DNA of 64,000 bases from assembly GCA_038746285.1 (NCBI GenBank), contig JBCDKT010000014.1, positions 1 through 64,000 on the forward strand, written 5' to 3'. The stretch comes from Bacteroidota bacterium (GTDB lineage: Bacteria; Bacteroidota; Rhodothermia; Rhodothermales; JANQRZ01). Within the stretch, counting starts at the first letter, position 1, and every line of letters starts with the position of its first letter. Of this stretch, positions 30,743 to 53,383 are shown one piece after another. Made by a program: the position numbers and the translations under genes. Under the pieces are notes generated by a model, which had not been told where the DNA came from, searched no databases, and saw nothing but the letters and a program-made list of their open reading frames with translations.

Positions 30743-30777
30743 GCGGAGGCCCGATGGCCCGCGCCAAACCTGGGGCA

Positions 30778-30905
30778 CGTTCGGAAACGCAGGGGGCTGC
30801 CATCCCGGACCCCGGTCCGGGACCTCGCCGAGCCCGAGGCGTACCCGAGACCCTGAGGCGGGTTCGGGGTGACGCCAGAGGGAGAGTCCAGACAGAGCCT
30901 AGAAG
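30778..30905. repeat. About 125-bp intergenic repeat (copy 1)
   Basis: Shares long stretches with a copy near 50.8 kb: GTTCGGAA at one end, then CCTCGCCGAGCC, GAGGCG, and a TGACGC-N-AGAGGG end. Inside is the palindrome CCCGGACCCCGGTCCGGG. It lies next to the motA sigma28 promoter, as the other copy lies near that of fliC. Confidence 0.75.
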
Positions 30906-50655: not shown

Positions 50656-50799
50656 GCGCGGCACCAGAAAATCTCGGCTAAGTAGCTATGCAGGCAGGAT
50701 ATAGGATCGTTCCTGTGCCCGGACGCCCACGCAAAAGGGGGGGCGCTGGCGTTCGGCGCTGCCCCTGACCGGCGCGGCGTTGGGGGCTCGTCTAGGGCG

Positions 50800-51050
50800 C
50801 GTTCGGAAGCACAGGAGGGCCGTCGTGCCCGGTCCTGGGGCCTCGCCGAGCCTGAGGCGCACGCCCGAGGTCCCGAAGCGAGTTCAGGATGACGCTAGAG
50901 GGTGAAAACAAAGCCTTAGTCCTCTGGCACGTTGAGACGGACAGGCTTTCTTCTTTGTCATCCCGGACCCCGATCCGGGATCTGGGGCGTGGCCCGTAGA
51001 TGGGCTGCGCCGCTGCTGCGCGGTCTGAACCACGTTCAGGACGACATACC
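50800..51050. repeat. About 125-bp intergenic repeat (copy 2) plus related segment
   Basis: The first 125 bases match the repeat upstream of motA (GTTCGGAA, CCTCGCCGAGCC, GAGGCGCAC, GTTCAGGATGACGC). The following part has the palindromic GGACCCCGATCCGGGATC and again ends in GTTCAGGACGACA, so it looks like a second, diverged unit. Confidence 0.7.
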
Positions 51051-51076
51051 TGTCAACGGGAGCTTGTCGCAGCACG

Positions 51077-51309
51077 TAGGCCGTGTGGACGTCTGCCCAG
51101 ATCGTCTCTCACGGGCCGGATTCCACCCTCGCTGCGTTGCACTTCCTTCGACTCCGCTCAGGACAGGCTCTGCCCGATGCTGCGGCATCTGGGTGGAGTC
51201 GCTTCGCTCCTCGAGGCTTCGCATTCTTGTGCGCCTTGCGAGGTCGAGATCGCGAGGTCGAGATCGTGACCGCGTGCGAACCTGACCCTGCAACTGTCCA
51301 CACGACCTA
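51077..51309. mobile_element. MITE-like element, copy A, with terminal inverted repeats
   Basis: Ends TAGGCCGTGTGGAC and GTCCACACGACCTA are inverted repeats. The inside matches the reverse complement of copy B near 52.3 kb over nearly its full length (GGAGTCGCTTCGCTCCTCGA, TTGTGCGCCTTGCGAGG). Copy A has about 35 extra bases, including CTTCGACTCCGCTCAGGACA. The right end contains the stop codon of the first HDOD gene. No transposase is encoded. Confidence 0.75.
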
Positions 51310-52236
51310 GGCCATACTCGGTGGGGAGAACGACTGGACCTGCTGGTCGAGGTGCTCCTTCAGCGCGAAGACCGCGTCGGCTAGCTGCTCCGGGGCACCG
51401 ATGGCCGCCGGCGCGAAGGGGAGGTAGTGGGCCCACATGGGGTCGGCCCTGCACGTCTCCTGCGAGCAGGGGGCGGTGAAGGCGTAGCCCAGGGCGCGCG
51501 CGGCGAGGTCGGCCAGCGACGAGGTGGCGACGAGGTGGCGCATGGCGGCGTCGCCCGGCACCTGGCTCGGACGGTGGTGGAAGTGGATGACCTGGGCGAG
51601 CATGTCGGGGAAGTCGAGCTCGTTTGCGGCGAAGACGCCGGCCTCGGTGTGGTCGCAGCCGAAGAGGTGGCGCTCGCGCTCCTGGAGCGCCGCCACGTCG
51701 GTCTCGGTGAGGCCGTACTGGTCGTAGAGCGGGACGGCCTTGTCGGGGAAGTTGTAGACGAGGACGATCTTGCCGAAGTCGTGCAGCAGCCCCGCCGTCA
51801 TCCCGACCCCCTTGAGGCTCGCCTTCGGGGCCGCGCCGTGCTGGGCCGGCAGCTCCTCGACCAGGAAGCGCGCGAGGTGGCCCGCCGCCACGCTGTGGCG
51901 GATGAGCCGGTTGAAGCTCGGTCCGGCGGGGCCGCTGAGCGCGGAGCGGAGCCTGAGCATGCTCATGCCCACGACGAGGCCGAGCACCTGCATCGGGCCG
52001 AGCATGAGCACGGCGCGCTCCGGCGTGCTGATACCCCGGCGGAGGCCGTGCAGCGACGAGTTGGCCATCTTGAGCAGCCAGGCTACGGCCAGCGGATCTT
52101 TCTGCAGCATCGCCGTGACGCTCGCCGGCGTGACCCGGTCGGGCTGTTTCGAGAGGGTGAGCGCTTCGAGGAGGGTCTCGGGCATCGGGGGGCAGCGAAG
52201 CTCGAGGCCGCTGAGGGCAGAGGGGGAGGCAGGCAT
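51307..52236 (-). CDS. HDOD domain signalling protein 1
   Basis: 309 residues. One HDOD domain: LELRCPPMPETLLEAL, VTAMLQKDPLAVAWLLKMAN, ISTPERAVLMLGPMQVLGLV. Residues LLHDFGKIVLVYN and CDHTEAGVFAANEL keep part of the HD metal motif, which many HDOD proteins lose. HDOD proteins act in signalling, often with cyclic-di-GMP, chemotaxis or motility, but the reaction is unknown. A close paralogue lies just upstream. Both sit between flgL and fliC. The stop codon falls in the end of a mobile-element-like repeat. Confidence 0.88.
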   Translation of the reverse strand: MPASPSALSGLELRCPPMPETLLEALTLSKQPDRVTPASVTAMLQKDPLAVAWLLKMANSSLHGLRRGISTPERAVLMLGPMQVLGLVVGMSMLRLRSALSGPAGPSFNRLIRHSVAAGHLARFLVEELPAQHGAAPKASLKGVGMTAGLLHDFGKIVLVYNFPDKAVPLYDQYGLTETDVAALQERERHLFGCDHTEAGVFAANELDFPDMLAQVIHFHHRPSQVPGDAAMRHLVATSSLADLAARALGYAFTAPCSQETCRADPMWAHYLPFAPAAIGAPEQLADAVFALKEHLDQQVQSFSPPSMA

Positions 52237-52258
52237 AGTGGGGCCGCGGTAGGTGGAC

Positions 52259-52453
52259 TAGGGCGTGTGGACAATTGCAAGACTAGGCTCGCGCGAGGTC
52301 ACGATTGCGGCCTCGCAAGGCGCACGAGAATGCGCAGCATCGAGGAGCGAAGCGACTCCACGTCGATGCCATAGCATCGGGCGACGAGTGCAACGCCGCG
52401 AGGATGGAATCTGGCCCGTGAGAGCCGGTTCGGGTGAATGTTCACACGCCCTA
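52259..52453. mobile_element. MITE-like element, copy B, with terminal inverted repeats
   Basis: About 195 bases between CTAGGGCGTGTGGACA and TGTTCACACGCCCTAG. CTAG at both ends may be the target duplication typical of IS5-type insertion (YTAR), with inverted repeats starting GGGCGTGTG. It is inverted relative to copy A and fills the gap between the two HDOD genes, with its right end forming the stop codon of the second HDOD gene. No open frame is seen, so it would need a transposase in trans. Confidence 0.78.
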
Positions 52454-53383
52454 GGGGGTGGGCATGGTGAAGGAGCGGACGTACTCGTCCAGGTCGGTCT
52501 GCTTCGCGGCCAGCAGGTCGGTCAGCGCCTCGGGCGTGCAGGGCGGGGCATGCTCCGCATAGAGCGCCCACACTGGGTCGGCCGTGCAGGCCTCCCACGA
52601 GCGGGCCTCGGTGAAGCCGTAGCCCATCGCGCCGGCAGCCAGGTTGGCCACGGCCACGGCGCGGACGAGCGGGGCCGCTTCGGGATCGGCCTGCTCCGGG
52701 GCATGGTGGTGCCGGGCGACGTGGGCGAGCGGGTCCGGGAACCGGAGCTTGCGAGCGGCGAACGCGCCGGCCTCCGTATGGTCGGACCCGAACAGGAGGC
52801 TCTCCATCTCGCATGCGCTCTCGGCGCGCACCGAGAGCGAGCCCTCGTCGTAGAGCGCGACCGCCTTGTCGGGGACGTTGTAGACGAGGATAATCTTGCC
52901 GAAGTCGTGGAGGAGGCCTGCGGTGTAGCCCGACCCGGTCCGCGTCCGGCCGGCGGGCGGGGTCACACACGGGCTCTGGTCCTTCGTCAGAGAGTCGGCG
53001 AGGTAGGCCGTGGCGATGCTGTGGAGGATGAGCCGCGAGAAGCAGTCGCTGGCGGGGCCCTCGAGCACGGAGCGCAGCCGAAGCATGCTCATCCCCACGA
53101 TAATCCCCACGACGGCCACCGGCCCGAGCATGACGACGGCCCGCTCGGGGCTGCTGATGGTGCGCGGGAGGCCGTAGTACGCCGAGTTGACTGTCTGGAG
53201 CAGCCGGGCGATCACGAGCGGGTCGCGCTCGAGCAGCGACGTCACGGTCTTGGTGTTGATCTGCGCCGGGTTGTCGACGAGGTTGAGGGCCTCGACGAGC
53301 GTGTGCGGCAGTGGTGGGCACCGGAGCTCCAGGCTCCCGAGCGAACTGGCCGGACTAGGGGATGGGCGCGTGGCGGGGGTCAT
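52451..53383 (-). CDS. HDOD domain signalling protein 2
   Basis: 310 residues, a clear paralogue of the neighbouring HDOD protein (shared LELRCPP, SPERAVVMLGP, VGMSMLRLRS). It also keeps AGLLHDFGKIILVYNVPDKA and SDHTEAGAFAARKL. Compared with the neighbour it has a different loop rich in charged residues (CVTPPAGRTRTGSG). It follows flgL after 29 bases and so may be cotranscribed with hook-filament genes. The likely role is signalling linked to motility, inferred from context. Confidence 0.88.
   Translation of the reverse strand: MTPATRPSPSPASSLGSLELRCPPLPHTLVEALNLVDNPAQINTKTVTSLLERDPLVIARLLQTVNSAYYGLPRTISSPERAVVMLGPVAVVGIIVGMSMLRLRSVLEGPASDCFSRLILHSIATAYLADSLTKDQSPCVTPPAGRTRTGSGYTAGLLHDFGKIILVYNVPDKAVALYDEGSLSVRAESACEMESLLFGSDHTEAGAFAARKLRFPDPLAHVARHHHAPEQADPEAAPLVRAVAVANLAAGAMGYGFTEARSWEACTADPVWALYAEHAPPCTPEALTDLLAAKQTDLDEYVRSFTMPTP

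Follow-up and report, generated by a model that had tools for sequence, protein, structure and literature searches.

The HDOD Locus and Its Repeats

Two paralogous genes lie in tandem on the minus strand of the window (i.e., the whole 64,000-nucleotide stretch of DNA analysed), beside flagellar genes. HDOD2 (52451..53383, minus strand; 310 aa; Pfam HDOD, E 3e-35) is upstream of HDOD1 (51307..52236, minus strand; 309 aa; Pfam HDOD, E 1e-31), an HDOD domain protein with which it shares 52% amino-acid identity. Behind each stop codon sits a short element, the two in opposite orientations: copy A (51079..51307, minus strand; 229 bp) abuts the stop of HDOD1, and copy B (52261..52451, plus strand; 191 bp) abuts the stop of HDOD2 and occupies the gap between HDOD2 and HDOD1. 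Both were delimited by inverted arms, terminal repeats and their alignment to each other, with lengths counted from the duplicated TA. The inverted arms (I1–I3) pair 51070–51314 with 52254–52460 at 78–84%, and the elements are 83% identical over ~191 aligned bases, with two blocks in A (14 and ~24 bp) that are absent from B. The copies are reverse complements of one another, as the initial annotation had described (there at 233 and 195 bp). Their common terminal repeats, GG(G/T)CGTGTGGACA, measure 13–16 bases; B ends in CTAGGGCGTGTGGACA and TGTTCACACGCCCTAG, and A in CTAGGTCGTGTGGACA and (G)TAGGCCGTGTGGACG. Neither contains a transposase gene, for which 191 and 229 bp are too short.

The junctions locate the target. 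B is flanked by CTAG at both ends, as previously read, with TA target copies at 52259..52260 (left, CTAG context) and 52452..52453 (right, belonging to the HDOD2 stop TAG). A meets HDOD1 in a CTAG, where the TA at 51308..51309 and the terminal base of the element together form the TAG stop; on its outer side it meets a second repeat, R2, in a GTAG whose TA (51077..51078) is common to the R2 end, and because this side is GTAG and tangled with R2, the original target of A is not readable exactly. The element ends do coincide with the TAG of both HDOD genes, at 51307 and 52451, and in each stop the target provides the TA and the terminal base of the element provides the G. The initial description of the elements as supplying the stop codons therefore holds for this third base, but not for the TA, which is target-derived, nor for HDOD1 as a whole, given that its TAG is present in an element-free genome of the same genus. 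A role for the elements in HDOD expression is unneeded and not supported.

R2 (50917..51076, plus strand), a MITE-like repeat of roughly 160 bp that abuts A, is unrelated to the A/B family. Its ends are GTGCTGCGACAAGCTC and GTCCTCTGGCACGTTGAGACGGACAGG, it contains an internal palindrome, CCGGACCCCGATCCGG, and it is present in 17 near full-length genome copies (16 further copies, L072–L087). Its target is CTAG or CTNAG, frequently at stop codons, and at five or more places it lies directly against another MITE; no R2 transposase was found. A further repeat of ~115 bp occurs at 50792–50903 and 30770–30885 (76% identical; the first copy starts (C)TAGGGCGCGTTCGGAA), and the matching intergenic region of the sister species, at 217 vs. 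735 bp, is too short for it.

Family, Source, and Target

Comparison with relatives points to the family. In a genome of the same family (G002), an IS with ends CTAGGTCGTGTGGACA and TGTCCACACGACCTAG shares the first of these, 16 bases long, identically with the HDOD1-side end of A. The copies of this IS are cut at contig ends, with the middle outside view, and its transposase matches Pfam DUF4096 and DDE_Tnp_1 and NCBIfam transpos_IS5_3 (E 2.8e-26 for the C-terminal part and 3.4e-19 for the N-terminal part against NF033580, each part below the whole-protein cut-off). Another family of the order (G025) has a similarly ended, complete IS of 860 bp, with TTAG at its left junction and CTAG at its right; the flanking letters themselves, TTA and TAG respectively, share only TA, which is therefore what was duplicated. 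Each junction CTAG is thus composite, the outside C or G coming from the target and the inside G or C from the element, and the TA duplication lies mostly in CTAG context (e.g., at the flanks of B). Because their ends match those of an IS5-family IS and TA is duplicated, A and B are, judged by sequence, IS5-type MITEs, a known kind of element. The initial annotation fared well here: it had proposed MITE-like elements with an IS5-like source sharing their terminal repeats, now represented by the G002 IS, and CTAG as the target context, borne out by the flanks of B and the TA duplication of the G025 IS. Its proposed search for a source IS succeeded in this relative but not in the fragmented assembly of the source genome itself (4.1 Mb in 134 contigs, where IS copies break contigs), in which neither the transposase piece nor the family model retrieved an IS with an A/B-type end. 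The IS5_3 member of that genome carries other ends, GAAGCTGTTTGG.

TA duplication and a preference for CTAG are also typical of IS630, and as elements of the A/B type show both, we considered whether they could be IS630/Tc1-mariner-type MITEs. The transposase carrying the very end of A, that of G002, is however of the IS5 family, and no IS630-type transposase gene with GGGCGTGTGGACA ends was seen; an IS630 origin is accordingly rejected as very improbable.

The middle of A and B, ~85 bases (e.g., 52315–52400), recurs in about ten other MITEs of the source genome and in one of the same-genus genome G001 (L004–L018, L101), at about 77–89% identity over the matched parts. These core-bearing MITEs have at least six IS5-type ends other than those of A and B, namely GA(A/G)ACTGTTTGG, GAGCCTGTATTCG, GAAGCTGTTCGG, GGGCTTATCCGA, GGCTCTG(T/C)CTGGA and GAGGGCGTTGAG, and in three of them (L005, L008, and L010) the core lies inside elements with unlike ends on the two sides. 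To judge from these alignments, one core is carried by different IS5-type ends.

History and Dispersal of the Insertions

The same-genus genome G001 has an orthologue of each HDOD gene at the corresponding position beside flagellin (76 and 83% amino-acid identity) and lacks both elements. Its HDOD1 stop lies within an intact CTAG, and its HDOD2–HDOD1 spacer, without B, is about 56 bp. A third insertion, at a LuxR gene, is similarly missing from G001 and G002, with an intact CTAG stop in G002. Since G001 has both paralogues without elements, the HDOD duplication is older than the insertions. This bears directly on an alternative favoured by the equivalent placement of A and B in tandem paralogues, and raised in the initial annotation, i.e., that the ancestral HDOD gene already bore an element at its stop, that gene and element were duplicated together, and that recombination between the inverted ends later turned one of the copies round. 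That history would need the precise loss of both elements in G001, and it sits badly with non-coding elements that are 83% identical beside proteins that are 52% identical; with the orthologous sites empty, we reject it as scarcely credible. A shared history of duplication and insertion is no longer required for the HDOD genes.

Nor is the element confined to this site, as the initial annotation had allowed it might be. Further copies or fragments lie on contigs C20, C27, and C48 of the source genome, and similarly ended elements occur across the order; matches on C26 (L037) and several with 2 mismatches lie in ordinary sequence and are apparently due to chance. A and B are the only full-length copies found, 1 kb apart, which would fit an origin of one from its neighbour, whether by hopping locally or by inverted duplication in place. 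Yet the similarity of A to B (83%) is equalled by its similarity to a copy dispersed on contig 48 (L003, 84%), its end agrees with a contig 27 copy (L027) in 38 of 40 bases, and A and B each sit precisely at the TA of their own site. The equal distances and the contig 27 match favour separate arrivals over local copying, which we regard as quite unlikely; inverted duplication without any transposition is likewise unlikely, with dispersed copies elsewhere.

Position Relative to Stop Codons

How surprising two landings on stop codons are depends on the supply of sites. In 1.26 Mb of stretches of the source genome (69% GC), CTAG occurs 818 times: at 136 stops, 367 coding positions, and 315 intergenic positions. 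(This is ~4 times rarer than base composition predicts, about 3,600 sites being expected by a hand calculation for 69% GC and 1.26 Mb.) Genes were called by a simple script and the main ones checked with Pfam, two R2-linked genes having no Pfam match. Stop codons thus make up 17% of all CTAG sites and 30% of those outside coding sequence, the latter serving as a lenient null from which coding sites were left out because selection would remove insertions there. The chance that both A and B landed on stops is 0.03 to 0.09. With 17 or 30% of CTAG sites being stops, two such landings are unsurprising, and the earlier view that the double landing was unlikely by chance was overstated.

The wider set of copies is more suggestive. 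All four own-genome copies that keep a CTAG end lie on a TAG stop (HDOD1, HDOD2, a LuxR response regulator, and a methyltransferase), while the degenerate contig 48 copy is away from any stop. In the R2 family, 9 of 17 copies are on stops, giving 13 of 22 for both families together with the degenerate contig 48 copy included (p about 8e-6 against 17% and a modest 0.005, approximately, against 30%). Elements with other MITE ends were represented by few copies only in the 1.26-Mb sample. As these counts were made after the pattern had been seen, and as some copies are adjacent and hence non-independent, the excess at stops is a lead and no proof of active targeting; in this sense the initial suggestion of a preference for the stop context is right. 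Similarly ended elements in other families of the order likewise abut stops, those of clpX, ruvC, two SDR genes, and an ABC transporter gene, cited here as bare occurrences. One element (L198/L217; G006 contig 6, 20679–20951) lies between a convergent ruvC and DUF4290 gene with a TAG stop at each end, and a single TA may originally have been part of both stops.

Position at gene ends could also reflect retention for a function, e.g., as a transcription terminator or as a hairpin protecting the mRNA end. The terminal repeats of B fold into a long hairpin (z = -5.2), and the frequency of stop positions in two unrelated families exceeds the lenient null. By contrast, A folds only weakly better than its shuffles (z = -1.9), neither a terminator-like stem with a T run nor an Rfam match was found, and the same genes of the sister species do without the elements. 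A T-run terminator or known RNA family is therefore rejected, and because accumulation at safe sites accounts for the position without any function, we consider retention for function unlikely.

Discussion

The observed ends, the IS with the same end in a relative, the TA duplication, the empty sites, and the repeated stop positions are consistent with a single conceptual model, which we hold to be highly probable: A and B are separately acquired, transposase-less insertions of the IS5 family at TA/CTAG that pile up at stop codons. Specifically, a transposase of the IS5 family (IS5_3 type) would recognise GG(G/T)CGTGTGGACA ends, and one of the G002 type would presumably move GGGCGTGTG-ended elements in trans. 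The element would enter at TA, preferably inside CTAG, and the TA would be duplicated. As either strand of the element starts with G, a gene read into either end would meet TA plus G, i.e., TAG; an insertion at the TA of a TAG or TAA stop would for this reason always keep the stop and leave the protein unchanged. In a GC-rich genome, CTAG sites are scarce and stops would make up many of those at which an insertion is tolerated; copies would then accumulate at gene ends, with purifying selection the probable main cause.

A stronger proposition is that IS5-type elements whose ends start with G have a general niche in stop codons, i.e., that these elements prefer stops beyond what selection against other sites would produce. 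We put this forward as a tentative and rather doubtful extension. If it were true, TA and TNA targets would represent stops on one strand or the other, the ends would rebuild a stop either way, and gene ends would act as self-repairing safe harbours in which unrelated MITE families accumulate and stack.

The elements themselves are ordinary, and what novelty there is appears mild: stops as self-repairing safe sites, and one core common to differently ended MITEs. The former offers a simple mechanical reason why an element on a stop may be harmless (target TA plus element G gives TAG), yields a prediction, testable in thousands of genomes, of the sites at which a GC-rich genome retains MITEs that target TA or TNA, and could aid the annotation of gene ends; harmless landing on a stop codon is itself a testable point. 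A literature text search, with most subscription journals outside its coverage, returned no paper on the insertion of IS5-type MITEs at stop codons.

Several known systems share parts of this picture. IS5 of Escherichia coli and ISMysh01 have CTAG or CTAA flanks (PMC11677980, PMC9241763) and, unlike A and B, are full IS with a transposase, about 1.2 kb in the case of IS5. The G002 IS, of transpos_IS5_3 type, resembles A and B in its 16-base end and in its insertion at CTAG/TA, whereas A and B lack a transposase gene and, between their terminal repeats, have no sequence in common with it. MITEPsy1 of Pseudomonas syringae, for which a text search of PMC3189936 found no mention of stop-codon insertion, differs in its ends (GGAAGGTCTGAAAAAGCC), its length of 100 bp, and a reported duplication of 4 bp (PMC3189936); like A and B, it is a short IS5-related MITE that inserts at CTAG, in its case also at YTAA, and it has been shown to move (PMC3189936).
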